A stretch of 64,000 nucleotides of DNA, from assembly GCF_036711975.1 (NCBI RefSeq), contig NC_091971.1:22141501-22205500 (forward strand). Reading direction: 5' to 3'. Shown one piece after another: positions 3,735-56,200 of this stretch. The stretch's first letter is position 1, and every line of letters begins with the position of its first letter. This stretch comes from Onthophagus taurus (Eukaryota > Arthropoda > Insecta > Coleoptera > Scarabaeidae). The translations under genes were made by a program, and so were the position numbers. Under the pieces are notes generated by a model, which was given only the letters and a program-made list of their open reading frames with translations, was not told the DNA's origin and did no database searches.

Positions 3735-5095
3735 AATGTGTGTTCAACAATGCAATACCACAATCTCTTGAAAGAGCTGCTCTCGACAGAGGAGTGGGAG
3801 CAACTATAGCGGGTTGGTCCCTTCTGGTTGATGTTCTGATTGCGATAGTGGAAGCCGTTGGTGTAGAAACATAAGCTTATGCTGATGACATTGTCGTTAT
3901 GGCCAAGGGAACCTGTTTGTCAAGGATATCCAAGGTCCTCCAGATGACCCTAGATACCAGTTGCGCTTGGTGTAAGGGGGAGAATCTCTCGATAAACCCG
4001 AAAAAGACAATCGTTGTGCCCTTCACCAAGAGACGAAAGTTGGATGGACTAATCCGCCCAACTATCCAAGGTGAAGAAATTTCTTTCTCACAGGAAGTCA
4101 AATATTTAGGAGTAATCCTAGACAAAACCCTCTCATGGAATAGACATTTGCAGGGAATTTTACACAAAGCTAGATTATCCTTGTAGACTTGTCGTAGACT
4201 TTGTGGAAAAAATTTAGGTCCTATACGGAGCAGCAGCCTGGTGTAGGAAAATCCGACAGAGTTCAGTTATCTTTCACGAATTCAACGAGTAGCTGGATTG
4301 GCACTCTCTGATGCAATAAGCGGAACGCTAACTCTAATAATGGATGTTCTACTTGGCCTATCTCCTTTGCATTTGCATATACAGAAAGTGGCTAGAACAA
4401 CCATTTACAGATTTAAGCAATATGCTCAAAACTGTTCCGACATGTCCTGCCAATGGGCTGAGGAAGACATTATAAGCACTGATACTGCGCTATTACTGCC
4501 GTCAGATTTGGCGGGATCACTATCAGTGATTAATGCTCAATACCAGATTGTACTGCCTGAACGACAGTTGGTTCAGACAGATATTTGCACGTACACCGAT
4601 GGATCAAAAGCGCCGAAATGGGTCGGGGCAGGAGTATACTGCCAGAGACCTCGGATTAAGGCTTACAACCTGGGTACGTACTGTACTGTATTCCAGGCGG
4701 AAGTATTTGCTATTGGCATGGGTGCTAAAACCCTTCTTGAGAGAGGAGTGAAGAACATGACAGTACGATTTTTCTCAGACAGTCAAGCCGCTCTCCAGGC
4801 GCTAAAGACCGTGAAAACGGTGTCGGCTCAGGATCATGACTATAAAAAGAATATTAAACACACTGAGTTGTGATAACAGAGTTTCTTACGATGTGGGTTC
4901 CTGGCCACTCTGGGGTTGCTAGCAAGGAAGCGGCAGATGAGCTAGCACGAGTGGGCAGCGCTAAAGCACAAACGCTTTACGCGGACCAGAACCAGCAGTT
5001 GGTGTATCATTTGCTGAAAATATGTTGCTAAGCGGCCTACGACATAGAGGGTAAGACTACTCTTTAAGTTTCTAAAGGAACGTTTACGTTGCAGC
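3735..5095 (+). mobile_element. LINE fragment: reverse transcriptase plus RNase H (R1/I-like)
   Basis: This is a broken non-LTR retrotransposon piece. The RT part includes AYADDIVVMAKG near 3878-3910 and the [16 protein letters not shown] block near 4108-4150. The RNase H part includes TYTDGSK at 4590 and FSDSQAAL near 4770. Frames are interrupted by stops after RLSL and near 4870. A minus-strand copy of the same family lies at 52590-54130. It sits inside the DD41D mariner and so inserted later. Confidence 0.85.
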
Positions 5096-12424: not shown

Positions 12425-14590
12425 TATATTTAGAAGCAGGGATGATTGGAAGATGGGTGGGCCTCAACTAAAAAGATGAGCCTGGTACACCGATGCTTCA
12501 AAGACAGTTAGATTCGGAGTAGGTATGGACTAAACTGCCTCTTAGCTCGGACATAACAATTTTCCAAGCAGAAGTTCTTGCTATAAACTTCTGTACCGCT
12601 TTGAACCTACAGAAGGGACAGAAAGGTTCATCCATATTTTCCCAGACAGTCCGACTGATCTGAATGTGACTCCGTACTGATCAGAGAGTGTACCAGCAAC
12701 CTGAGAGAACTCGCTAGGGGCAATGATGTTATCCTATGGTGGATTCCAGGTCACAGTAACATTGAGGGCAATGAGAAGGAGGACACGCTGGACAGAGAGG
12801 CAGCGAACACGCCCTTCATTGGATCCCAACCTGGTTGTGGACTACAAAAGCCACCTAAAACAAATAATCAACAGTTGGGAGGTCTCAAAGATAGCCTTAC
12901 GCTGGAAAGAACTTTCAGGTCACAGACAAGCAAAGAGTATGATAACTCCGTCGCAAAACAACACCAAAGAGCCACCTATAAGAAAATAAAAAAGGACCCA
13001 ACCGAGGAGATAGTAAGGAAGATGAAAGAACTGGTAAAATCCACAGAAATCCCAACAGATCAACAGAAAGGGTTCTTCGTACAGGCTGCAATACCACCAA
13101 GGATATATGGATTACCCAAAATCCATAAACCAGACGTCCCACTACGCCCTGTTGTCAGTGCCATAAATTCTCCCACCTATCAACTAGCAAAACACCTTTC
13201 CAAGATTCTGTCTCCTTTTACAGGTAAAACTGAGTCAAATGTCAGAGATTCCACACATTTTGTAGAATCAATTAGGAGTTAGACCCTCAGGATATGCTGG
13301 TAAATTTTGACGTGGAATCTCTATTCACCAGAGTACCAGTCAAAGATGCCGTGGATGGACTTCGCCAGAAACTGATCCCAGAGGGTTTGCCCAAGTATGT
13401 CCCAGGACTAGTGGAGTACTGCCTATCGTCGACATATTTCAGCTGGAAGGGGGAATTCTACGAGCAATGCGAAGAGGCAGCCATGGGATCACCTCTGCCT
13501 CCTGCGATAGCCAATTTTTACATGGGGATGTTTGAAGAGGAAGCGTTAAAGAAGATACGTCGAAGTTACGTCCATGAGACGTTCGTAATCTGGCAACATG
13601 GAAAAGAGCAACTCCAGGAAATTCTAGACCACCTCAATTCACAGCACCCCATGATAAAATTTACCATGGAAACAGTAACTGCAAAACAGTTGCCTTTCCT
13701 GGATGTGTTAGTCACTAGGAAGAAAGATGGGGGCATGGAACTGGGAGGTAACATCGAGTGCCGCATCACGGAACACGAGAGGGACGTCCGACTAAGGAAG
13801 ATCCAACAATCTGTGGTCGCAGAGCATTGCCATAAAGGAGGATACAGCATAGAGTTCGACAAAACCAAAGTGCTAGCAAGAAACGGACATTACTTCCAAA
13901 GATTGACGAGAGAGGCGATGGAGATTCATCGACATGGGAATAACATGAATAGAGAAGATGGTTGGCAACTCAGCCGCACATGGAAGATGCTAGTGAACTC
14001 AATGAAGCCTTCTCCACCTGGATTTGCCAAAAACAACTTGGTAATTAGACACTAATCAGTTATTAATTACCTTTTCATGTATTTATTGTCAAATTTTAAC
14101 CGAATTCGTCACTTCGAACTTGTTTCTGAAGAAGGTTGCAACATGGCATTCGAAACGTCAAACATTTTTTCAAAAAACGCACCAGAAAGTTTCTAGGTCT
14201 AGTTTTAGTTTAATTAACAACGGCCGTGAAAGCCTTCGTACTTATAAAACCTAAGAGGTTTTATGCCTCAGCAAAGGGTATTTAATGCCTCTTCCACATT
14301 GGACAAGCTGAGGATCAAACTTGTCGACTTTGCAACGACGAGTCAGAAACTGCTTAACATACTGTGCAATTGCGTCGGCAAGACACAAAATTTTCGGTAA
14401 AACTCTCTTGACACCTACAGACATAAAGGTTCAAGACCTCAGGGCAATACTAAGGTTCATCAAGGACCTACATTTGCCCTAAACTTTTGGAGGGCTAAAG
14501 TTACAATAGATCTTATAGGTCGCGGTAACGAGAGGGCCCGCTCCCCTTAGCCCGGCAGCAATAATAATAATAATAACACTAGAACTAAGA
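12425..14590 (+). mobile_element. LINE RNase H/3'-end relic, split by a PLE insertion
   Basis: Degenerate RNase H sequence (WYTDASK near 12480, then ILWWIPGHSNIEGNE near 12728-12770) stops near 12910. The matching LINE C-terminus (CRLCNDESETAEHILCNC, a Cys/His cluster) resumes at 14315-14370. The 3' end is an (AAT)n run at 14560-14580, a tail like those of I-type LINEs. The gap between the two halves is filled by a PLE, so the PLE inserted into this LINE. Confidence 0.7.
12916..14210 (+). mobile_element. Penelope-like element, reverse transcriptase part, inactive
   Basis: The frame starting near 12916 gives PPRIYGLPKIHKPDVPLRPVVSAINSP. After a frameshift near 13275-13290 it continues as VNFDVESLFTRVP, AAMGSPLPPAIANFYMG and PFLDVLVTRKKDGG, ending at a stop at 14053-14055. 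The catalytic YVDD position reads YVHE (near 13568), so both catalytic aspartates are lost. No GIY-YIG domain follows. The 3' tail near 14110-14165 carries CTGAAGAAGGTTGCAACATG...CGAAAC, the same signature as at 52520-52580. It is nested in a LINE relic. Confidence 0.85.
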
Positions 14591-17772: not shown

Positions 17773-18935
17773 CTACATCAACCAGCCTAAGGAATTTCCG
17801 AAGGCTAGGATACAGCTCAGAGGTGTGTTCCTGATGCCATCTGTGGTCGGCCATTCCTCTCCGAAGTCTCTCATTCTGAGGTCTTGCAGAGGGGGGCATT
17901 CACACAAGATGTGTCGGACCATCTCCTCGCTCTCTTTACAGAGGCGACAGAGAGGACTAATAGCAAGCTTAAGGTTATAAAGATGCTTGTTTACCTTACA
18001 GTGACCCGTGACGAGTCCCGTTATAGTTCGTAGAGCGTTTCTACCAAGCCTTACGAAAGACAAGGCTGCCTCTGCTGAAGGATAATGTAATACTTCCTTA
18101 GACAGATGGCAACCCTTAACCCTATCCCACCAGTTCATGAACTTTTTGTGGGTAAAATCTTTAATTATCTCAATCTGAGTTGATAAGGACGGAGCGATTA
18201 TCGGTTCAGGCGAACATGGCGCTCGCTTGGCAGCCCTTTTGGCAAGCCTATCAGCGTGCTTGTTACCTGAACAAGTCGAGTGTCCTTTTATCCATTGAAG
18301 TATGACACAGTTATGCACTGCGGCCTCCTCCAATGTCAGATGACAACCCATAACAAGTCCTGAGGTAATTGTTATTCTACTCAGGGCTAAAATAGCTTGT
18401 CTACTGTCAGTATAAATTGTAAAAGTCTTACCTACCAAGTTGGATCTGACAATAACGCCAGCGGCAAGTTGTATGGCGATTAACTCCGCCTGTATGACGG
18501 TGGTACTTATACCTAAAGGTTCAGATACGTGGAGTCGGAGATCGTACGAGAAGACTCCGGCTCCAGCTCCTTCCCGTCTCTTTGAACCATCAGTGTAGAT
18601 TTTAAGGCTGTTTTTTACCTCTACTTCTGTGGAGCTTGGGTGGGTGAGATATTTCTTCGTAAAAATGTGTTGTAGGGGTGTAAAGTCCGTTACACACTCC
18701 AGAATTGGTGAGTAATCCACCATTTCATTCCAGAGATTGGCATTTTTACTATTTCTCTCACCCATTAGAATTCCTGCTGCTCGCAGTCGAGTCATGGTTA
18801 CCAATGCCACCTCTTGGATGAACAAATGAAGTGGCGTTAGGTTTAACATGTTTTCCATGGCTGCAGTGGGGGTAGTCCGCAGCGCACCTGTAACATACAA
18901 ACACGCAAGTCTCTGTACTTTATTAAGTGCAGTAG
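17773..18935 (-). mobile_element. 5'-truncated LINE with intact RNase H and C-terminal Cys/His domain
   Basis: An uninterrupted minus-strand frame of nearly 390 codons starts within the RT thumb (KVQRLACLYVTGALRTTP). It contains an RNase H domain: IYTDGSKRREGAGAG, VIQAELIAIQLAA with catalytic Glu, IYTDSRQAIL, and WIKGHSTCSGNKHADRLAK. A Cys/His cluster CRLCKESEEMVRHILCECP follows. Its upstream part is missing, so it is a dead-on-arrival 5' truncation. The open frame suggests fairly recent insertion. An R1/I-like LINE clade is likely, since these carry RNase H. Confidence 0.85.
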
Positions 18936-19725
18936 TGGATGTAGACTGTGTTCGGCATGTTAGCAGGGATCTTCGAGTTTCCTCTTCTGTTATTCAGCGT
19001 TTATGGAATCGGTTTCGGGAGATTGGCCAACATGTTAGCAGAGCTGGATAAGGTCGAAATCGAAAAAGTAGTCAAAATCAAGACCGATTTCTTGTCCTTT
19101 TTTGTCTACATACGCGTACTGCCACAGCATGAGACCTCCTAAACGACCTAAGACGAGCACATAGAATAGAAATTTCTGATCAAACTGTTAGAAATAGATT
19201 AAAAGAAGCGAATTTGAAACCTAGAAAACCTGTCCGCGAACCACGCCTTACGCAGCATCACAAAGCAGCGCGAATGAGGTTAGCTCTGGATTACAGAGAT
19301 TGGCAACTTCGTCACTGGACGCCTGTACTGTTTACAGACGAGTCCAGATTTCGGTTAACTCGTTCCGATGGTCGAGTACGTGTATATAGACGTCCTGATG
19401 AATGCTACGCAGCCGCTACTATACAGGAAGTGGATAGATTTGGTCGGGATCTGTTATGGTTTCGGCTGGAATCAGTATAGACAACAGAACTGATCTTGTT
19501 GTTGTTTCTAGTAGACTAAATGCCATGAATTATATCAAAAACATCTTGGAGAACCATATGGTGCCTACGTCATATGGGGTCGGTCAAAATTTCATCCTAA
19601 TGCAGAACAATGCAAAGCCACATACCGCCGGCATCACCAGAAAGTTTTTGCAATTCAGATCATGAAATGTCCGGCTTTAAGTCCTGACCTGAATCCTATT
19701 GAACACGTCCTATTCAATTGAGATA
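18936..19725 (+). pseudogene. Tc1-like transposase, decayed
   Basis: Pieces in different frames give the paired-like HTH (RHVSRDLRVSSSVIQRLWNRF), a second HTH (SDQTVRNRLKEANLKPRKP), VLFTDESRF with the first catalytic Asp, then SVMVSAGISI, FILMQNNAKPHTA and LSPDLNPIEHV. The usual MQDNARPH Asp reads Asn (MQNNA), so the second catalytic residue is lost in addition to the frameshifts. Confidence 0.85.
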
Positions 19726-24970: not shown

Positions 24971-25368
24971 TTTGATTGATTAAATTTTTAATGTGTTCAC
25001 CGAAAGGTTCGAAAATTTTTTAATTAAAAGTTGTTTTTATTTGAAAAACTGCGAGATCGTGCGAGGTGAAGAGGACTTAAAAGCTAAAACTGACTTACAG
25101 AAGTTGTTTTGCAGGTTAGGTGACAATGAAACAACTTCACACCAATAAAAAATATCACCTACTATTTTTAATTTTTATTATTAATTTAAAAAATTATAAA
25201 AATAAATTAATCAAAATAAAAAAATCATTAAACTGATTTAATTTTATTATCAAAAAAGAATTAGTAGTTTTTATAGATTACAAATGAAGTTAGATGCGTC
25301 ACTTTTGATAGATAAAATAATGACCTAACCTCAAACAACAAAATAAATAATATTTTAGAATCCTAATT
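24971..25368. promoter_or_regulatory. Bidirectional promoter region between TAF12 and MED20
   Basis: Only 398 bp separate the two start codons, which point away from each other, so both promoters must lie here unless distal. It is AT-rich with one GC-richer patch near 25040-25140. No TATA box in a convincing position can be assigned. Shared regulation of two general transcription genes is inference. Confidence 0.6.
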
Positions 25369-25995
25369 ATGGGTGTAACAGTTTTACAACATTTTCCTAT
25401 CCCCGAAAATCAAACGGGGCCGACTACAATAGAATGGATAACCAAAAAAATAACCGCACTGGGAGCAATGCAACAAGGTCAATTTTTAGTCGATTGTGAA
25501 ACATACATTTCAGTCCCTCAATTAGGAGCTCAAAGAACTGTACACGTTCTACACAATTCAGAACAACCAGCGACCGTTTTTTCTATACTTGAAACAGGGG
25601 CGAAAACCATACCTTTAATAACAGATGGATTATTTGATTTATTAATAATTAAAATGGTTAATTTTTACCAGAAACAAATTAAAATTGAATCGAAAGGGCC
25701 TAGATTTGAAATTGGTGATTTTTGTGTGAAGATTGGTTGTGTTACGATGAATTCGGCGTTTAAAGGGATTTTAGTTGAGGTTGAATATAGACCTTGTGAT
25801 ATTCCATCGATGTGTTGGAATTTACTCAGAGAATTTTTACAAGGATTTTTAGGAAACGTTGTTTTAAATAATCCACCACCTTATTTACAAAATAGATTAC
25901 AAGAGGTGTATACACCTATTGATACTATTCAACAGTATTTGGAACATTTTACTTCTTACCGGAAAAGTGTGGGAACATTTCAAAATGTAAAATAG
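25369..25995 (+). CDS. MED20: Mediator complex subunit 20
   Basis: MED20 is a head-module subunit of Mediator, which links activators to RNA polymerase II in the nucleus. It is a single 208-codon exon. The N-terminus MGVTVLQHFPIPENQ matches the conserved MGVT start of the family. Further conserved parts are GQFLVDCETY, FEIGDFCVKIG, VEVEYRPCDIP and CWNLLREFLQGFLG, in the expected order and near the usual length (about 210). Poly(A) signals AATAAA lie at 26004-26009 and 26019-26024. It is divergent from TAF12. Confidence 0.95.
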   Translation: MGVTVLQHFPIPENQTGPTTIEWITKKITALGAMQQGQFLVDCETYISVPQLGAQRTVHVLHNSEQPATVFSILETGAKTIPLITDGLFDLLIIKMVNFYQKQIKIESKGPRFEIGDFCVKIGCVTMNSAFKGILVEVEYRPCDIPSMCWNLLREFLQGFLGNVVLNNPPPYLQNRLQEVYTPIDTIQQYLEHFTSYRKSVGTFQNVK

Positions 25996-35262: not shown

Positions 35263-37623
35263 TCAATTTGAAACACTCGAAGTAGACGATCGATTATGTT
35301 TTAAATGACTAGATACTAAATGGCCAACACTTAAAGCTGCCAATAAAGATAATTCGCCAGCTAAAACAGTTCCGCATATAATTTTAGCTAATAAACCAGC
35401 ATTTTCACCGGGATTTTCAACATTACTTCCTTTAACACCCAACATTTCCAAACAAGCAGATTGTGCGTGTAAAATTGTTCCACCTCCTACAGTACCAACT
35501 TCAATTGAAGGCATTGTACAACTTATATATAAATCTTCCCCGTTTAATCCCCATGGTTCCATCAATGTAATACAATTACTGCTGACGACGTTTTGAGCAG
35601 GATCTTGACCCGTTGCAATGAAAATTGCCGTGACAATATTCGCAGCGTGAGCATTAAATCCACCTAAACTTCCAGCCATTGCTGACCCAATCAAATTCTT
35701 CGAGATATTCACATCAATAAGAGAATGGCTTGTCGTTTTTAATAATGTTTTTACGGTTTCAGATGAAATTATAGCTTCGCAAACGACGGATTTTCCACGA
35801 CCTTCAATCCAATTTATAGCAGCCGGCTTTTTATCAGTACAAAAGTTTCCACTTAAACTTAAAATTTCCATCTCAGGGAAATGAATTTGCATATACTTTA
35901 ATGATCTTTCAGAACCTTTCGATAACATATTCATACCCATTGCATCCCCAGTTGACGCAACAAATCGCACAAAAAGATATCTACCCGCTATACGAGAAGT
36001 AATCTTTTTTAATCGAGCAAAATTGCTGGTTGAATCAAATGTCTTTTTTAATAATTTGAAATTATTGGGTTGTTCGATCCATGAGACAGCGTTTCCTGCA
36101 CTTTCTAATGATGGAAATCGAACTACCGGTCCCCTGGTCATTCCATCACGCACAATTCTGCTTGTAATTCCATTTTGAAACGTTGCTTTACAACCACGTG
36201 AAGTACTCGCAATTAAACAACCTTCCGTTGTAGCCATTGGAACAAAATGTTCGGTATTATCCAATTTTAAAGGGCCAATAATACCAACTGGTAGCGGAAC
36301 GTAACCTATTACATTTTCACAACAAGCTCCCAAAACTTTTTCGTAATCAAAATTTTGATATGGTAAAAGTGACAAAGCTTGATCTAATTTTTTGTGCTCG
36401 CTAAAAACTTTTCGCCGAATTCGAACGGCTTTTGCAGCGTTTTTAACGACTTTTTCTAAATTATACAAAGATATGTGTTTTTCTTTGAGTAAAACGATCA
36501 TTTCTTTATCAGTTAGTTCGTTTGGTGTTGTTTTAAGTATTTCTAGACAGTCAATTATGTTTCTATTTGGTTGATTATCTTCACCTGCGTCCCAAATTAA
36601 TTCGTTATTGATGGTGTTTACTTGAATTTCTTGGTTTTTTGGCGAATCGATTTTCGAAAATGAACTAAAACCGTCGTTATTTTCGAAAAAAATTAATTTT
36701 ACAATAAGCGCAAATAATAATATTAATACGACAATATGATCAGCACATAAACTTAACCATTTAAGTGAATATCCATTGAATAAAGTACCGTTATTGAGAG
36801 TGTTATCGTAAATTTCGGTTTCGTTTTTGAAAGATCTTCTGCTTACTAGGTGTACAACTGATAATCCAATTGACATTATTATTTTTACCCTTTGTATAAC
36901 AGGATTTGATTTTTCTTCCATTTCAATACATTGAGTTACGACGACATTTCTACGCGTTTTCTTACTCAACTCAATAATTAATGACAAACAAGATGGGTAC
37001 AAAGTCATAAAAACTATGTAATTTACAATAACTGATAGGCAAGCGAAATAGGATAACATTTCTAATCGATGCACCCCTGATAGAGTTCCTATTCCTATAA
37101 CTAAAGTTTCCACAATCGTATCTAACGTCATGGTGGGCCCCAAAAAGGCCATTCCTTTAGCAATGTTCTCCTTAATTTCGTTTTCGTTTTTTGCACTTAA
37201 ACCGTATCGAGCTAACATTGAAGCTTTCGATAAATCTATTAGTAACAAAAAGAAAAACATTGCATCTTTGAGATCTGCCAGATTAATATTGAGCAAGTTT
37301 AATAAGGTTGTTGTAAATATAAAGCTTGATATCACCGTAAATAATCCTGCTATACCTAAAATATATTTAGAGCCAAGTTTTTGTAAATTCCTAAATTGGT
37401 AATAACTATACAAAACAGCTAAACATCTTATTATTGTCATTACAATCATATCTACAGGAGAATACTCTTGGACACAACATGAATCAGACTTTGAGGGTGA
37501 AGCTTGGATAGTGGATTGATCGAGGGTTGATATGCATACTGTTAAAGTCACCGTCGCTACGATTACTTCCCATGGGTATTTACTGCAGGTTTCACCATAA
37601 ATGTAGAATAAATGGGATACCAT
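35263..37623 (-). CDS. Hmgcr: 3-hydroxy-3-methylglutaryl-CoA reductase
   Basis: It reduces HMG-CoA to mevalonate with NADPH at the ER membrane, the committed step of the isoprenoid pathway (juvenile hormone, dolichol and quinones in insects, which do not make sterols). It is a single 786-codon exon. The start chosen is the ATG at 37621-37623 (MVSHLFYIYG...PWEVI), which aligns with the family start; an in-frame GTG three codons upstream was rejected. Membrane segments of the sterol-sensing-domain type fill the N-terminal half (DLSKASMLARYGL, GPTMTLDTIVE). The catalytic half has ATTEGCLIAST, DKKPAAINWIEGRGK, TGQDPAQN, GTVGGGT, and the catalytic His in SHLKHNRS (about 773). Ser of HNRS (about 779) matches the AMPK phosphosite. 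It is shorter than vertebrate forms mainly in the linker. Confidence 0.97.
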   Translation of the reverse strand: MVSHLFYIYGETCSKYPWEVIVATVTLTVCISTLDQSTIQASPSKSDSCCVQEYSPVDMIVMTIIRCLAVLYSYYQFRNLQKLGSKYILGIAGLFTVISSFIFTTTLLNLLNINLADLKDAMFFFLLLIDLSKASMLARYGLSAKNENEIKENIAKGMAFLGPTMTLDTIVETLVIGIGTLSGVHRLEMLSYFACLSVIVNYIVFMTLYPSCLSLIIELSKKTRRNVVVTQCIEMEEKSNPVIQRVKIIMSIGLSVVHLVSRRSFKNETEIYDNTLNNGTLFNGYSLKWLSLCADHIVVLILLFALIVKLIFFENNDGFSSFSKIDSPKNQEIQVNTINNELIWDAGEDNQPNRNIIDCLEILKTTPNELTDKEMIVLLKEKHISLYNLEKVVKNAAKAVRIRRKVFSEHKKLDQALSLLPYQNFDYEKVLGACCENVIGYVPLPVGIIGPLKLDNTEHFVPMATTEGCLIASTSRGCKATFQNGITSRIVRDGMTRGPVVRFPSLESAGNAVSWIEQPNNFKLLKKTFDSTSNFARLKKITSRIAGRYLFVRFVASTGDAMGMNMLSKGSERSLKYMQIHFPEMEILSLSGNFCTDKKPAAINWIEGRGKSVVCEAIISSETVKTLLKTTSHSLIDVNISKNLIGSAMAGSLGGFNAHAANIVTAIFIATGQDPAQNVVSSNCITLMEPWGLNGEDLYISCTMPSIEVGTVGGGTILHAQSACLEMLGVKGSNVENPGENAGLLAKIICGTVLAGELSLLAALSVGHLVSSHLKHNRSSTSSVSN

Positions 37624-38693
37624 TTTGAACACGTTAACCCTTATTTTTACACTTTCTTTGAGATCCTTAATTTCGGGATATGATACAATTTTAAATTATT
37701 AGCAAACATTTCGAGATTTCTCTTGGTTATTGATAATTTTCATTTTAAAATCGATTTTAACTAAAGAAGGAAAACCAAAATAGTTGTTACTGTCACTTTT
37801 GATGTTTTTTAGAGGTTATCACGTTATTTATGAAATTTCGATAATTTGATACTAAAATAAAAACTATGAATAGTTTTTTGTGGCTTTTTTACTCACTTAA
37901 TTAAATTTTAACAAAAATTATATAGTTTTATTTAAAAATCTTGACTTATAGGTAATTTAGAGATACTTTATCGTTTTTTAGGTTATGTCGGTTGTCATAT
38001 GACAGATTTGCACCTACTCAAAATTGTTAATTATAACAAATTAATGTTTTATCACTTAAAAAACTTGATGGCATTATTTATTAGTAATAAAAATAATAAA
38101 TTTATAATTTAATACATTTTTTTTATTGATTTTATTCGTTACTGTCACTTTGATGCAACGTCACGTTTAACATGACGTTTACCAAACTTTTAAAAATCGA
38201 ATTATTTATATCAGCAATACTTTATTCAATAAATTTTGAGTTAAGTTATTAAAATAATCGGTTTTAATACAACTTTCGAATATTTTGATTTATTCACAAT
38301 TTTAATTTACAAAAAACCAACTTATTTTTACCATGACGTTTAAAAGGTTATGTCATAACCTTAAAAATTAAAAAATCACTAAATCGCTTTATCACATATT
38401 TTATTGAATTAAACCCATTACAGTAATCGATTCTAATAGAATTTCGAGAATTTTATAATCCATTTGGAATTCTTAATGATGTTTTAGTAAACACTCGATA
38501 ACCAATTTTGCAATTCAAAACTAAAAAAAAAAAACCTCCAAATCATGCTACGTGACGCGATTTAAAAGTAGGTGAGCACTTCTGTTAACGTTCGTGACTG
38601 ATAAACTAACGAGTGAAAGTTGATTATTATGCTGGTAATCATTCCGTGGAGATAACCCTTTTCCTCCTAATAATCGTCTCAAATCGAAATAAA
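37624..38693. promoter_or_regulatory. Divergent intergenic promoter region, HMGCR/HMBS
   Basis: About 1.07 kb of AT-rich DNA between the start codons of two divergent genes. It contains repeated short motifs ACGTTTA(C/A)CATGACGTTT (near 38160-38185 and 38333-38345), as CATGACGTTT twice. No TATA/Inr assignment is safe. Confidence 0.45.
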
Positions 38694-40244
38694 ATGAACG
38701 AATCTAAGAAAAATTCTACAATTATTAAAGTCGGTTCTAGAAGGAGCGAGGTAATTACATAATTTATTTCAATTAAAAACCTTACCTAATCAAATTTCTT
38801 TTACCTTTTCGTTTAGTTGGCTTTAATTCAAACAAATCATGTTATTTCACTTCTTAAAGAAGTTCATCCTGAAAAGGAATTTGAAATCGTTACTATGTGT
38901 ACGATGGGGGATAAAATCTTAGATATTCCTTTACCAAAGATTGGTGAAAAATCGCTTTTTACGAAAGAACTCGAAACAGCACTTGCAACAGGTTGTGTTG
39001 ACTTCGTGGTGCATTCTTTAAAAGATTTACCTACTACTTTACCTGAAAATATGGCTATTGGAGCTGTTTTAACTAGAGAAGACCCTCGAGATGCTTTGGT
39101 GTTGCGTAAAGATTGTTCTGGTTGTGATTTGGATACTTTACCTAAAGACAGTGTTATTGGGACATCCAGTTTACGTAGAGCAGCACAAATTAACAAGAAG
39201 TATCCTCATTTAAAAGTTGAAAATATACGTGGGAATTTAAATACTAGATTAAAAAAATTAGATGAACTTGATAAGTATCATGGAATTGTTTTAGCCGTCG
39301 CCGGCTTACATAGAATGGGGTGGAAAGATAGAATATCAAAATTAATTCCCTGTGAAGATATTTTATACGCGGTGGGTCAAGGTGCTTTAGCAGTTGAATG
39401 TCGAGAAAATGATGAAGAAATTCTCGAACTTTTAAAACCAATTTACGACGTCCCCACTGCACTTCGAATAATCGCAGAAAGAACGTTTTTGTGTACCCTT
39501 GGAGGCGGTTGCAGCGCCCCAGTTGCTATAACTTCTAAATTAAAAGAACAAAAAGATAACTCCACATTTAATTTATCTCTAAGCGGTGGAGTTTGGTCCT
39601 TAGATGGTTCAGAAGAATTAAAAGAATCCAACTCTTGTAAATTATACATGAATAATGTTCAAATTGAATGTGAAAATTGTCCAAAATCAAAAAATGAGAA
39701 TTCATGTAAAGAAGGCGATATTGAGTGTTTACAAACATGCAAAAATATGTGTAAAAGAAATTTATATAACGACACTCAATGTCCATATCAACCCAAAAAG
39801 AAACTAAAAGTTTCAGAAAATGACAAAAATGGTTCTGTATCAACTTCTAGTGATACAGATGTTGGTAAAAACGATCACTGCCCAGTGCATTTAACTGTTG
39901 GTGCTGATTTCATGGGGAAATGTCCATATTTAGATGGTGAAATGACAGGAAAATGTCCTGTTAATGGAAAAATTATGGGTAAAGCAATGGATGTTACAAA
40001 ATGTCCATTTTTAAAAGATGGAAAATTAGTCGATGTGGTTACAGTTAAGGAAAATAATATTATTGAAGGCGAAGAACAAATTGTAAAGAGTAATTTATTT
40101 TGCGGACTGGTTTCTTATCCCGGTGTTAATATTAAGGTGTTTCGGCAAGCTGAAGAGTTGGGGAGAACTTTGGCTGAAAGTTTGATTGAAAAGGGAGCAT
40201 CTAAAATCATGGCAAAAGCACAATCATACATTAGGGGGAACTAG
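38694..40244 (+). CDS. Hmbs: Hydroxymethylbilane synthase (porphobilinogen deaminase) with Cys-rich insert
   Basis: It polymerises four porphobilinogens to hydroxymethylbilane in the cytosol, the third step of haem synthesis. Two exons: 38694-38750 (19 codons) and 38817-40244, with a 66 bp GT/AG intron; 494 aa. Family blocks: VGSRRSE|LALIQT, GEKSLFTKELE, DFVVHSLKDLPT, GTSSLRRAAQ, NIRGNLNTRLKKLD, VGQGALAVE, and GGGCSAPV with the dipyrromethane-cofactor Cys at about 251. Then GGVWSLDGSEE. At about 300-440 an extra Cys-rich segment interrupts the third domain. It has six Cys-Pro dipeptides (about 307, 341, 374, 388, 399, 415) and the basic KKKLK. Domain 3 then ends GASKIMAKAQ. The family is usually 310-360 aa, so the insert is the main oddity. 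Confidence 0.95.
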
Positions 40245-40555
40245 TTGATTTATTTATTGTACTTTTTAGAAGTTATTAATTAGGTAGATGTAGAATATCC
40301 ATGACTTTACAAATGTTTTGTATTTAAGATTTTTTTATGGTGCAATGTTTTTGAAAATTTAAATATTATATGGTTGCAATTTTTTTTTTGTTTTTTTAGT
40401 TGATATAACCACAAGATATATAATTAAAATAATTATCATGATCTCTTAACCACATCCTATACTCTATTTTTTAATTCGGAGGAGTGTTTTCAAATAGAAG
40501 CGCCAAAAAGAAGAGTTGCTATTCGTCAGTTTTAAGGAAAAATTCGAAATGTTGC

Positions 40556-40619: not shown

Positions 40620-43420
40620 TTTATGTTTATTCAGTTTATTTCGTATGAATTTTTCTCATGTTTGAAATTGATGAATTGCTCCAAATTAGGAAGGCATAAG
40701 TTACTAGTGGCCTAATAAGGGCTTTATAAAGAAGTAGAGTACACTCAGTTCGCAGTGGTGATTTTCTGTTGATCAGAGGATACACTTGGCGAAACCTGGC
40801 ATATCCTTGGTTGACCTTTGAGTTTATGTGGAGTTTCCAGGTGAGGCGATGATCAAGGAGAACTCCGAGGTATTTAATGGCTTCATCTTTTGCTTTCCAC
40901 TATATTTCTTGATCGTTTATAATAATGTAAGGAGCATTTTGATAAGGTCTTAGCGAAAAGATCTTGGTCTGGCATTGAGCTGAATGGCCCATTTTGATAA
41001 CCATTTCTGGATTTTGTCTACTGACCTTTGAAGTGTCTCAATAGCATCAATCAGGATGCCGTTTTGTCCCATTATTAACATATCATCCGCAAACATGGCG
41101 ATTTTGAAGTTTACGTCGGTCGGGATATCATGCATAAAGATGTTCAACAGAGCAGGGCAAAACTACTACCTTCTGGAATGCCTGCAAGTATTCTTCGAGT
41201 GCTGGAGGAATATCCATTGATGGTGACGGAGAAAGTTTTCTCCTCCAGGAAAGAGAACAGAATGGCAACTAAATAGTTGCTTAACCCCGTTTGATTGAGC
41301 TTGTATTTTAATCCTTCAATCCAGACAGTATCGAAGGTCCTTGTTACATCCAGCGAAACAACAGCTGTAAACTTTTTAGCCTCGAACCCTTCCTCGATAT
41401 ATTCCGCTACTCTTGCCAGTTGGTGAACTGTGTTATGTCCCTCTCTAAATCCATACTGGATGTTTGGGATTATTTTGAGGAGGCTTCTTGTAGTCGATGA
41501 TGGATGACTCGTTCGAATAGCTTAGATAAGGATGAGAGGAGACTGATTGAGCGATAATTGGCTGGGTCTGTATTGATTTTGCCTGGCTTTCTGAACATTA
41601 GGATTTACGCTTTTTTACATACTACCAGAAAGTAGCCATTTTCCAGGCAGCAATTAAAAATTCCTGTGATGTGACTCAGTAGTTTCTCCGGAAGGTGTTT
41701 TATTACTATATTAGGTATCTGATCTAGGCCTGGAGCTTTTTTTAATGGCGAGTTTGCTATTTCTACCTTTAGTTCTTCTACTAAGATCCTGTCGGTCTCG
41801 ATAGTTACTGAAGTTAGTAGATGGGATTCATTATATTGTTGGATTGTGGTAATGTGACGAATATTGTCATTATTGATATTCAGTCGAAAACATTCTTCCA
41901 GATATTCCGCAAAGGTGTTGGCTTTGTCTTCGTCCGAGAATACTGGTGTTTCATTGACTAATATAGTAGGTATTTCTTCATATGTCCGCGTTATTTTCCT
42001 AGTGGTCTTCCACAAGTCTGGGTGAGTTTTTTATAATTGTTGATTCTATAGGCATCTAGTTCTTGAGAAATTGTATGAGTTAGTCTATTCAGTGTAGTTT
42101 TTATTTCTGGGTTACGCGTCTATTGCCATTTTCGGTGAACCCTCCGTTTTTCCTTGATGAGTAGCTGATGTTGGTAAGTTAAATTCTTGATTATTCGGTG
42201 AGTCTCCAAACTCTGCCCAGTTGATGAATCCATTGATCTGCTTATTAATTTTAGGTCTGTAGTCAGGTTGCTCTGCAATGGTGATGATTACCCGCAAATG
42301 ATCCGAGTTTAACTCGCTGATTATACACAGATTTAACTGGATGGTAAAATTTTTGGTTATTACTACATACATCTAAAATATCCGGTTGATAATCGCTTCT
42401 ATATGGAAAGTAGGTAAAAGTGCACTTGAAAACCGTATTTGGTTGCTAATAATTCCAGATTCAGTCCCGATGGATTATCTGCTCTGTATCCCCAGAGTTT
42501 ATTCTTGCTGTTAAGATCTCCTATAAGTAGGGTAGGTATAGAGCTACTCAACATTGAACTTATGTCAGTTTCTAGTAGTTTTTTGTTAGTATCCACATAT
42601 GATATTAACTGGAGTTGACTTATTTGTTTGGATTGCTATTGCCGTTACTTCAATAGCGGTGGTTTTACTGCTAAATTGATGGTGTTGAATTTGTCTTTTA
42701 ATTATAAATGCCACCCCTCCGGCAACTGTATCGGAAGGCCTATCTGCTCTATATACGTTATATCCTGCTATTCGGAAAGTCTCACTTGGAGCTAGGTGTG
42801 TTTCCGTGATACAAGCTACATCAATCTGATAGCGAGCCAAAAACGCAATAAGAAGAGTTCATTGTTCTTTAATACCATTGGCGTTGAAATTCAAGATGAT
42901 TAGGTTGCGTATGTTTGTTAGATTAGTCGTGAATTAAATGTGGGAGTAAATCTTTAAGATAGGAGAGAATGGTAGATAGGAGAGGTGCCCGTCATTCTGA
43001 GGATTGTTGTTGGTTTGGTTGATTCTCTACTTGAGCGGGAGCGGGCGTGCTTTTTACTGTCGATGCGTAGCTCCTGATATTAATCTTTGTTTGAGATATT
43101 GCTTGTGAGCTCTGGGTTTTTTGCGCAAGATGAACTGAAGTTGTTTGACGATGGTATTTGTTCTGATATTCGATGTGAATTTTACAGCCTCGATAGCTTG
43201 CTGGATGATCCACAATTAGCACACTTTGGTGGATCAGCTTGAAGTTTTTTTGCAATTAATGTGGTTGTGATTTTCACCGTATTTGACGCAGCTAGGGCTC
43301 ATTGAGCAGTAATTTTTCGTATGTCCATATCGTCGGCAGTTATGGCATTGTTGAATCTTTTGAGAATTCCTCCTGGCTTCGACTGTGATGATTGCATTGG
43401 AAATTTCCTTGACTTGATAG
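40620..43420 (-). mobile_element. Jockey-clade LINE, decayed, with gag-like, endonuclease and RT parts
   Basis: Read on the minus strand: a gag-like CCHC region (CHNCRRYGHTKNYC near 43320-43365); an AP endonuclease (VACITETHLAP, YNVYRADR, IGDLNSKNKLWG near 42490-42530, then NSDHLRV near 42300); and the RT (LKKAPGLDQIPNIVIK near 41690-41745, FADDMLIMG near 41070-41095, then the thumb to about 40680). Numerous frameshifts and stops. It lies just downstream of HMBS and is flanked on both sides by copies of a palindromic repeat. Confidence 0.85.
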
Positions 43421-50200: not shown

Positions 50201-53200
50201 ACGACTTTTACGACATCTTCATTTTCGAATAAACCTGATTTGATGCATAATTGAAGTTGCTGAATTGAGCAATTAGCATGAGCAAAATGCGACAAATTTA
50301 TAGCTCTAATCATGTTTGATCCTCTATCGTGAATAGATGCTATTCTTTAAGCATTAAGTTTAGTTTTTCAAATATGACTGCTGTGCTTCGATTAACATTT
50401 TAAAACCATGTTAACTTTTTTTTAAATCTTCTGTTCTTCCATGAGTTGTTAGGTTTAGGAGTGAAACGCCTGCGCTGGGATCAGACCAAATATCTGTAGT
50501 GAATGTTAGCTTTTCAAATTCGTTAAGCACCATTTTACCTTATAATTCATCACACAAGGTTTGTAAAAAATTGATGACCTCTTTATATTTCGGTGATGTT
50601 GCCTGCAAAAAACGTTCAAAAAAGACGCCTTCAACATAATTAAAGGGCAAATTTTGACCAACGATCATCTGTGCAACCAATTTATCAAGTTCTATTGCTT
50701 TTTTATCAGACGAATCCCAAAATTCTCTTAACTGAAGCGTTTTTTTTTTAACTTCTTCTATTGTCGTCAAGCAGGTATCTGTTAATTAATTCAGTTGTAG
50801 TGCGTCCTTTTCTTGAGTGAATTTTTTCACATATTTTACAAATTGCTTTTTCATCAGCTTCTTCATTAAAATAGTTCCATATACCACACGATCTTGGCTT
50901 CATCTTTATTGCAATTTGATCAAATTGTCGTACAATTAATCTCCAAACGTAGAGAATAGAAGCAATAGAGAACACTCAAAAGTTCTGGTATCTCTCTAAT
51001 CTCTACTACTAAACACGATCATTCGGGCATTGGGGCGGATTTGGAGCAATATTCTCGCCGCAGCAACTTTGAGATTCGAGGAGTTCCTGAGAGGGACAAT
51101 GAGAACTTGGTTGCCATGATCGAAACTATGGCTACCTCCATGACGTTCCGATTTCGGCTGTTGATGTGAATGCTGTTGCGTTCCTCACGGTCCAAATGGT
51201 AATGGGTCGAAGGGTCGTCGAAGTGCTCCTAAGGCTGGTATTGTACGTTTCTGCAGTCGTGTTATGCGTGATAAATTTCTTGTTGCTGCGAAATTCAGGA
51301 CCAGGAATTTCCAGATCTACGTCAGGAAGAGTGACGACGCACGCTCTATCCACATTTAAAGTGGCCAGGATATGTCATGCAACTATTATTTACCATGTTG
51401 TATAACTTACGATGTCTGCCATTTCATTTTATTACCAAAATGTACGCGGCCTTAGAACTAAGTTAGATACATTATTCAATAACGTGTTAAACTCTGATCA
51501 CGACGTTATTTGTCTGACGGAGACTTGACTGCAAACTGGGATACATTCGGCAGAGGTTTTTCCAGATTCGTACCATATATTTAGATCCGACAGGCCTAAT
51601 AACGCATTTAATAATTTGTTGGGTGCGGGCGTTTTGATCGGCGTATTCAGTAATCGGGCGTTTCGATTGGTTTGTCGGGCTGGCATAACATTACGTGGTT
51701 AATTGATTCATGTTTGTTGTATTTATATTCCGCCTTTGCGATATGCGGAGAATTCAACCTACCGGAGCTGAGATGGTCTCTCAATGTCAATTTTCGTCAT
51801 TGTGTCGCTTCACGTATTAATAATACTACTAGATCGCTCTTGATTTTCTTGACGCTCTGTATCTGTGCAGCCTGATTCAATTCAACCACGTTGGTGCCTT
51901 TCAGAATACTTTGGATTTAATAATTGCTAATTTCTATGATGTAAATAACGTGAATTTAAGCGATAACCCATTGGTTCGTGAAGATATTGCTCATACTACA
52001 CTTGAGTTTTAGTGTACGGTTGCCACCTCGTCTAGTTTCGAATATAACTCTTTACTGATCATCATAATTAGTTTATATACGTAAATTTTGTATATTTTGA
52101 TGTGTTTTTCTTTTACTGTTGTTATTTTTGAGGCACTGTGCCTTGGGTTCGTCCCGTTTCCGTGCTCAACGGTATGTATTAAATAAACAAGATGTTACAG
52201 GTCTCCTGAGTCTAGTTGACCCTAAATTAGGTCTAGGTCCAGATGGTTTGCCTGGTGGGGTTATTGTCAACTCCGCGGAAGAACTAGCTATACTCTTATA
52301 CCACATATTCAGTCTCTCTGTGAAAGATTCTATCTTCCCTGTAGAATGGAAAAAAGCATTTGTTATACTAATTTTCAAGTCTGGTAAAAACACTTGGTCA
52401 CTAATTATCACCCGATTTGCCTTCTACTTTAAGTACGAAAGCTTTCTCGGCTGGTGTTAATTGAACTAAAATTAGAACTAACACTTGAAACTTTCGGGTT
52501 TTGCCGTGCGTCTTTTAAGAAAAGGTTTAATGTTTCGGATGCCATGTTGCAACCTTCTTCAGAAACTGGTTCGAAGTGACCAGTAGTAGAGGTAGTAATT
52601 AGGCATTAATACCTTGCTCGGCGAAAGGTCATTCAGATCCCTTGAGGAGATAAACTGCGACCCAAAAATCGAGAATCTGATACGGTTAACGGCAGGGCAG
52701 TGGCATAAAACATGCTCAACCGTCTCTGCTTCCTCCGCACATAGTCGGCATTCAACATCGTCGGCTAAACCCAACAAGTTGAGGTGTGCTTTTAATCGGC
52801 AGTGCCCAGTAAAAACACCCATTAGAACTTTTATGCTACTACGGGCAAGTCCTAAAATATTCCCGGGTTTGACAGTGGCGATGTTAATGAACACCTTAGC
52901 ATGTCTCATTCCAGGAGAACTGGTCCACAGTAGGCGAAGTCTCTCTTCAGCCCACAGTCCAATCCTATATTTGGCCATCGCAAATGATACACCAACTGCT
53001 GGTTCCGGTCCCACAAACGCTTCAGCGCTGCCATCTCGTGCTAGCTTATCTGCCGCTTCATTGCCAGCAACCCCAGAGTGACCCGGGACCCAGATCAGAG
53101 AGACTCTGTTATCACAACTCAGTGTGTTTAATGTTCTCTTACAATCATTGACCAAAGCCGACACCGTTTTCACGGCTTGCAACGCCTGGAGAGCGACTTG

Positions 53201-56200
53201 ACTGTCTGAGAAAATTCGTACTGTCATGTTCTTCACCCCTCTTTCAAAAAGGACATGTCAATAGCAAATACTTCCGCCTGGAATACAGTACAGTACGTAC
53301 CCAGGCTGTAAGCTTGCTTAATTCGAGGTGTCTGGCAGTATACTCCTGCTCCTACCCCTTCAGGCGTTTTTGATCCATCTGTGTACAAGCAAATGTCTGC
53401 CTGAACCAGAGAATTTTCATTTTCAATTCAGGACTGCCGCTCAGGCAGTACAATCTGGTATCGAGCATTAATCACTGATAGTGATACCGCCAAATCTGAC
53501 GGTATTGATAGCACAGTATCCCATTGTCTTCCGCAGCCCATTGGTAGGACATGTCGGAACAGTTTTGAGCATATTGCTTAAATCTGTAAATGGTTGTTCT
53601 AGCCACTTTCTCTATATGCAAATGCAGAGGAGATAGGCCAAGCAGAACCTCCATTGCTAGAGTTGGCGTTGTGCCTATCGCACCAGAGATTGCCAATCCA
53701 GCTACTCGTTGAATTCCAGGCTTTCCACTTTCCTATACCAGGCTGCTGCTCCGTATGTGATCATAGGTCTAACCACAGTCACATAGAGCCAGTACAGTCT
53801 TTCAGGGGTAAGACCCCAATTTTTTCCACAAAGACTGCGACAAGTCCACAAAGATAGTCTAGCTTTGTGCAAAACTCCCTGCAAAAAAATTTTTTGTGCA
53901 AAACACACAAATGTCCATTCCATGACAGGGTTTTGTCTAGGATTACTCCTAGATATTTGACTTCCTTTGAGAAAGGAATTTCTTGGATAGTTGGGCGGAT
54001 TAGTCCATCCAACTTTCGCTTCCTGGTGAAGGGCACAACAATTGTCTTTTGCGGGTTTATTGAGAGGTTCTCTCCCTTACACCAAGCGCAAATGGTATCT
54101 AGGGTCACCTGGAGAACTTTCCTGCTCCTTTAAGTCGTTACATCTCAGCATAATATATGCTCAATTGTCCCCTAAACATCCCCACATAATCTACACATCC
54201 TCTCCTCATTCTTCATCCAAAATTTATTCTGAAATACCCCGGAATTTCCTCTGTTATTATGATTTTATACTTATTATTGTATCTCCCGTCTTTCACCTGA
54301 GCACGCCGTTCCTGCTTTTCCACATCTCTATCTCCACTCTCGAACTCCTTTCACAGTATAGACCCTTCCCTTCTTCTTCTCTGTGCTTCCTCTGTTGAGT
54401 ACCCTACTCTAGTATAATATTCTCTTTTTTCTTGTTGTCAAACATTCTCCCAAAATTTTAAAGTCGCTCCTATGCTCCAGCCCATCCTCGTACTTTATCG
54501 CCCTTCTGCCTATTTCCACCCTCATCTTCTCCAGTTTCCACTCTTCTCTCACTATGTATGCCAGAGTCTCCCTGCTCAGTCCCAGGACGCACTTGGAATA
54601 TCTCTCCTGGATGTCCTCCACCATCTTGTATTCCTTCCACCCCCATATTTCGGCTCCGTACATTACCACACTCCTCACCAGTCCATCAAACATTATTTTC
54701 TGAATGTACAAATCTTTCCCAAATATTCGTTACCCCGGCTTCATATCTGTCCCTATAATTTACTTGCCTTTCTAACTCTTTGCGTAATATGATCGCCAAC
54801 CCCATTATCTACTCGAAGGTAAAACCCAGGTACATAAATTCTCCTTTAAATTTTCCTTATTCTTCATATTCCCAGCGTTGGTTGGTTTTTGGAATCACTT
54901 TGATGAAGGGTCGGTTGATGGGTACCGATTTATACCATTCGAGTGATGTCTCTCTTCAAGCTGTCTGCCTATTGTACTTTTATAATAGTCATTGCAATAA
55001 TTTTGATTTATTTGTGGTTGCACAAAGAGTTTTCAGGTGTTATGTATTGAGCTTGATTATTTGTCATTAATTTTGTTATTAATTCAAATTGTATTTAATT
55101 TTCTTTTTATTAATTATTGTTTTTCTTGTACTAATTATTTTTTAGTGGATACTTAATTGGGAGTTTCCTGTATATATCCCGAATATAAATAATAAATAAC
55201 TAATATAAATATAAATATGAATATAAATAAATACGACGTCATTTTCTGGATTACAAAAAAATAAATCAGTTCTTATCAGTTCTTTTAGATTTTACCGTCC
55301 TTGCCTGGATGTAATTATAAACTTCGTGAGTCATTTTTAATAAGTTTAAATGTATGTTGAAGATGTTCTTATCTCTGTATAAATATTGAAAAAGAGATAA
55401 CATATTTTTAAATGAAAACATAGTTTACCTATTTGATTAAAATTAATCATTAAATTATGATATTTAAACATTTTAAGGTATCTTAACAATGATAATGGTA
55501 AGAACTTTACGACGAGATATTGCTCGTTATAATGCCGATGAAAGTATGGACGATGCAATAGAAGAAACCGGATGGAAATTAGTTCATGGGGATGTGTTTA
55601 GACCACCACGTAATTCACGGTTATTTGCTGCAGTCATTGGATCGGGGATACAAATATTTTTAATGGCTTTAATCACGTTATGTAATAAAAATTTTCATTT
55701 TAAAAAAAGCGTTTTTTAAAATATTTTTTTTTTTTAGTTTTTGCAATGTTAGGAATGTTATCTCCTGCATCAAGAGGAGCGTTAATGACGGCAGCGATAT
55801 TTCTTTACGTTTTTATGGGGTTAATAGCAGGATATTTTTCGGCGAGATTGTACAAGACGATGAAAGGTCGCGAATGGAAAAGAGCGGCTTTCTTAACAGC
55901 TACTTTTTACCCGGCTATAATAGCGGTTACGTGTTTCTTTTTAAACTTTTTCATTTGGGGTAAAGCGAGTAGTGGAGCTGTTCCATTTTCAACGATGATT
56001 TACCTCCTTTCTATCTGGTTTTGTATCGCTTTACCGCTAGTTTATTTGGGATATTATTTTGGATTTAGAAAACAACCGTTTCAACACCCCGTTCGAACCA
56101 ATCAAATACCGAGACAAGTTCCAGAACAACATTGGTACTTAAATCCGTTATTATGGTGAGTATAATTAATTTTGTTTTGTTATATTATTAATTATTTTTT

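Follow-up and report, generated by a model that had tools for sequence, protein, structure and literature searches.

A Cys-Pro-rich insert in domain 3 of Onthophagus taurus hydroxymethylbilane synthase, a candidate haem-responsive loop

In the beetle Onthophagus taurus, hydroxymethylbilane synthase (HMBS; synonym porphobilinogen deaminase, PBGD) carries in its third domain an insert of 147 residues, which contains six Cys-Pro (CP) dipeptides. The gene model is complete, the frame through the insert is open and of coding-like composition, the HMBS fold flanks it on both sides, CP is strongly enriched, and two of the six dipeptides match the classic haem-regulatory motif. As judged from the sequence, this presumably flexible surface segment may bind haem through the CP cysteines and so place the third step of the pathway under end-product control, a reading that is plausible but tentative.

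The HMBS gene and its product

The window is the whole analysed stretch of 64,000 nucleotides, and the features discussed below are given in its coordinates.

38694–38750, + strand: HMBS exon 1, 19 codons (MNESKKNSTIIKVGSRRSE), from the sequence and the joined translation
38751–38816, + strand: HMBS intron, GT..AG, 66 nt, phase 0
38817–40244, + strand: HMBS exon 2 including the stop codon, 475 residues, from Pfam and NCBIfam matches
39651–40091, + strand: insert (NNVQIE to IVKS), 147 residues with 11 Cys, 7 Pro and six CP
39669–39752, + strand: N-terminal Cys cluster of the insert, with Cys at 39669, 39678 (CP), 39705, 39726, 39738 and 39750
39780–39785, + strand: QCPY, the second CP
39879–40007, + strand: last four CP, HCPV (39879), KCPYL (39921), KCPV (39954) and KCPFL (40002)
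40092–40244, + strand: domain 3 after the insert, with the last strand, two C-terminal helices and the stop codon, from the predicted model and its superposition

The joined translation of the two exons (38694–40244, + strand) gives a protein of 494 residues, and the peptide of exon 1 is taken, by eye, to resemble the N-terminus of other HMBS proteins. The enzyme had been described in the earlier note as an otherwise standard HMBS, and this description holds. Exon 2 matches the Pfam families PF01379 (E 1.8e-76, 256.7 bits against a cut-off of 22.1) and PF03900 (E 2.6e-13, 50.5 bits against a cut-off of 26), as well as the NCBIfam model for HMBS, TIGR00212 (E 1e-90, 303.7 bits against a cut-off of 164). 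The only locus matched by PF01379 in the 291-Mb assembly of 33 contigs is the HMBS gene itself. Of two telomere repeats sought, TCAGG in five copies is absent, and TTAGG in five copies occurs at a single place, which looks interstitial. Two residues, C232 of the GGCS motif and D70 of HSLKDLP (exon 2 numbering), are invariant in an alignment of 30 rows comprising the beetle protein and 29 bacterial HemC; these are presumably the cofactor cysteine and the catalytic aspartate. The predicted model has the three-domain fold and superposes over nearly its whole chain on human and bacterial HMBS. The reaction catalysed by this enzyme is largely cytosolic.

At a distance of about 1 kb from HMBS, in head-to-head orientation, lies a long intronless open frame (35263–37695, – strand), which by eye is taken to be HMG-CoA reductase-like.

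Position, size and coding status of the insert

The insert is located in domain 3, between the last strand and the C-terminal helices. Its borders (NNVQIE to IVKS) follow our own delimitation, within which the narrower segment first pointed out, 39670–40025, falls. Between the same flanks (residues 300 and 331 of the human protein, 277 and 445 of exon 2), human HMBS (7ccy, 3ecr) has a loop of about 30 residues without a CP cluster, whereas the beetle enzyme has 167. The excess is thus about 137 residues by the human alignment, in which the C-terminal piece is weak when taken alone while the structural superposition covers both flanks, and the earlier estimate of about 140 extra residues in domain 3 proves accurate. 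The superposition on human HMBS spans exon-2 residues 1–471, on both sides of the insert, and two model helices (439–458 and 461–472) follow downstream of it. As had been proposed, domain 3 therefore resumes after the insert, in a frame without a stop in 147 codons.

Bacterial enzymes offer a wider comparison. A search of the genome_contigs collection with the HMBS core recovered 44 bacterial HemC loci, 43 of them with frames of 295–311 residues and one, L046, with 738. The insert is absent from all 29 bacterial HemC that were aligned out of these 44, L046 being shortened for the purpose, and CP is missing from 43 of the 44 loci, with a single dipeptide in the remaining one (L035). Relatives of the insert were likewise missing from the O. 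taurus genome apart from the insert itself, from the 31 pattern matches in viral_contigs and from the 41 in genome_contigs; the whole of exon 2 found no relative among its 29 pattern matches in viral_contigs.

The composition of the insert resembles that of the protein around it. A codon model was built from the adjacent, presumed HMG-CoA reductase-like frame and from the exons of 5-aminolevulinate synthase (ALAS) in this genome; under it, the coding score is 0.451 bits per codon for the insert, 0.485 for the core and 0.479 for the C-terminal tail. Among 20,000 random non-coding stretches, the score reached at most -0.10, and none was free of stops. Since the insert is stop-free and its codon use is coding-like, its translation is likely. 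The same evidence bears on the alternative that all or most of the segment is spliced out as a constitutive intron or an exitron, leaving a mature HMBS without CP motifs. An in-frame GT..AG pair at 39586–40044 (459 nt), whose removal would eliminate all six CP, does come close to the actual intron when rated with a generic splice matrix (4.55 against 5.08). Its excision would, however, also remove GGVWSLDGSEELKE, which belongs to the core aligned to human HMBS, and the conserved GGVWSLDG strand; moreover, an open frame of 147 codons with coding-like codon use, of a kind not found in the 20,000 non-coding stretches, argues against an intron. Splicing of this kind is considered very improbable.

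The predicted model assigns a pLDDT below 50 to exon-2 residues 282–391 and 403–425, which make up most of the insert, from an alignment that held no relative of the insert; the low values may merely follow from this lack. According to the available text of PMC11101860, known CP motifs are mostly located in regions of low pLDDT. The low-confidence model also agrees with another explanation, namely that the insert is a tolerated, fast-evolving linker without a regulatory role, in which CP was multiplied by slippage or small duplications. The site coincides with that of the human loop and its length was already variable, the segment being absent in bacteria and about 30 residues long in human. 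Two weak DNA repeats were found in the insert, and one of them (25 nt, 80% identical) surrounds KCPYL and KCPFL, as slippage could leave behind. At the protein level, internal repeats are not above chance (50 of 600 shuffles, or 197 of 600 with CP kept), which lends slippage no support. The enrichment of CP, together with the basic and hydrophobic residues that flank it, stands against a passive linker, and this explanation is regarded as rather unlikely.

The Cys-Pro dipeptides as haem-regulatory motifs

The codons of the six CP cysteines start at 39678, 39780, 39879, 39921, 39954 and 40002. The count of six given in the earlier note is correct and lies far above chance: when the insert was shuffled 200,000 times, six CP were never reached and five were reached three times. 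The remaining 329 residues of exon 2, with 10 Cys and 13 Pro, contain no CP at all. As a further, weaker control, the 18 open frames of the window that reach 147 codons were compared by their best 147-residue stretch: the HMBS frame has six CP and the runner-up one. The near-regular spacing that had been claimed for the dipeptides is not borne out. Successive CP cysteines are 34, 33, 14, 11 and 16 residues apart, which corresponds to two single dipeptides and a cluster of four.

The remaining five cysteines of the insert lie outside CP, in its first half, and the N-terminal cluster at 39669–39752 shows CxxC and CX3CX3C spacing. This arrangement would also suit a different role, in which the 11 cysteines would form redox-active disulphides or a metal site for zinc, copper or an iron-sulphur cluster; proline after some of them would then be a habit of the lineage, and the insert would respond to metal or redox conditions, or the cysteines would simply keep the loop together. 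Searches for a zinc or other metal domain were negative: Pfam, at E up to 1, gave a lone WCCH match at E 0.15 and under the cut-off, NCBIfam one match at E 2.6, also under the cut-off, and PDB sequences one at E 1. Metal or thiol chemistry would, moreover, leave the excess of CP unaccounted for, and is judged unlikely.

Two patterns were used for the haem-regulatory motifs, both as described in the available text of PMC3904948 (Tzou et al. 2014): the classic HRM_t (N/K/R-C-P-K or hydrophobic-L/M) and the revised HRM_r, a seven-residue pattern. HRM_t is matched by two of the six CP, KCPFL and KCPYL, the latter only when Tyr is counted as hydrophobic, and HRM_r by none. In shuffles that kept the six CP as units, at least two HRM_t occurred in 102 of 100,000, a rarity suggesting that the flanks of the dipeptides, too, were chosen. 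Basic residues are also frequent in front of CP, with at least four Lys, Arg or His in 638 of 100,000 such shuffles, a criterion that was picked after inspection of the data. The nonapeptides around CP carry a net charge of +1 in two cases, 0 in three and -1 in one. The accessible passages of PMC6356037 tie haem affinity to the positive charge of the CP peptide, and on that scale two positive peptides out of six point to a modest affinity. The resemblance to haem-regulatory motifs proposed in the earlier note is thus upheld in part: it extends to two HRM_t matches and to the CPFL shared with ALAS, and not to HRM_r or, beyond two of the six, to a positive charge.

The beetle's own ALAS presequence serves as an internal reference. 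It was found at L003 (1192–1734, – strand) through PF09029 (26 bits; cut-off 21) and carries three CP, namely CPFL, CPVM and CPFL, none of which matches HRM_t or HRM_r. As both patterns miss all three, they discriminate poorly, and a pattern match weighs little either way; by eye, the motifs of the HMBS insert are at least equal to those of ALAS. The two segments are alike in having several CP, an identical CPFL, which occurs twice in ALAS, and CPV in common. They differ in location: the CP of ALAS lie in the N-terminal mitochondrial presequence, whose function is described in the available part of PMC3904948, and those of HMBS in an internal loop. A common origin for the two segments was considered and is not supported, as the score of their alignment was reached by 244 of 3000 shuffles and by 719 of 3000 with CP kept.

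Proposed haem feedback and its precedents

In the favoured, tentative reading, the insert would be translated as a flexible loop on the surface of the enzyme, at a position where human domain 3 has a much shorter one. The CP cysteines, chiefly those of HCPV, KCPYL, KCPV and KCPFL, might bind haem transiently, in the manner of ALAS, BACH1 and haem oxygenase-2, and loading with haem might lower the activity or the stability of HMBS, thus providing feedback on haem synthesis at its third step. Translation, surface flexibility, haem binding and the effect on the enzyme are all four putative. If haem feedback does operate here, end-product control would act at HMBS besides ALAS, by means of an insertion within the enzyme itself.

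BACH1 and haem oxygenase-2 resemble the insert in having several CP (six cysteines for BACH1); theirs are located in disordered or low-confidence regions, as far as described in the accessible parts of PMC11101860 and PMC6356037, and the insert may be flexible as well. They differ in function, BACH1 being a transcription factor and haem oxygenase-2 a catabolic enzyme, whereas HMBS is biosynthetic.

Haem regulation of arthropod HMBS is an idea already published in 2014. In the available text of PMC3904948, HRM_t is recorded in three of six arthropod PBGD and HRM_r in three of six, with Drosophila named. The motifs are not confined to the N-terminus, and control of protein stability by the product is suggested. 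The authors present the arthropod PBGD motifs as predictions in need of experiments, and a full-text literature search found no experimental test of haem motifs in PBGD or HMBS. Since motifs in arthropod PBGD had been described there, the earlier note arrived at a known idea anew, on sound grounds and with a richer example. The beetle protein also departs from that account: the available text deals with motifs and mentions no domain-3 insert, and here HRM_t occurs twice and HRM_r not at all. With six CP in one removable loop, the 2014 prediction would gain a rich test case.

The same source, as available, reports an iron-responsive element (IRE) in the 5′ UTR of PBGD from Drosophila and honey bee, and for this reason one was sought at the beetle gene. 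None was present among four Rfam matches in 37700–40500, all under the cut-off, and CAGTG is absent from the 998 nt upstream of the HMBS ATG, beyond which a more distant 5′ UTR exon could lie.

A combined arrangement can also be envisaged, in which the N-terminal Cys cluster (CxxC, CX3CX3C) would hold a redox disulphide or a metal, and one or more haems would be bound by the four clustered CP. Such a two-part sensor is improbable; if true, HMBS would integrate the iron or redox state with the level of haem, as a second point of control after ALAS.

Several other open frames were noted in the window. Five of them, at 4247–4873 (+), 12659–14055 (+), 17773–18993 (–), 40636–42635 (–) and 52559–53257 (–), one of which lies directly downstream of HMBS, are taken by eye to be non-LTR retrotransposon fragments (reverse transcriptase, RNase H). 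An intronless open frame at 25351–25995 (+) presumably encodes, again by eye, a protein like Mediator subunit 20.
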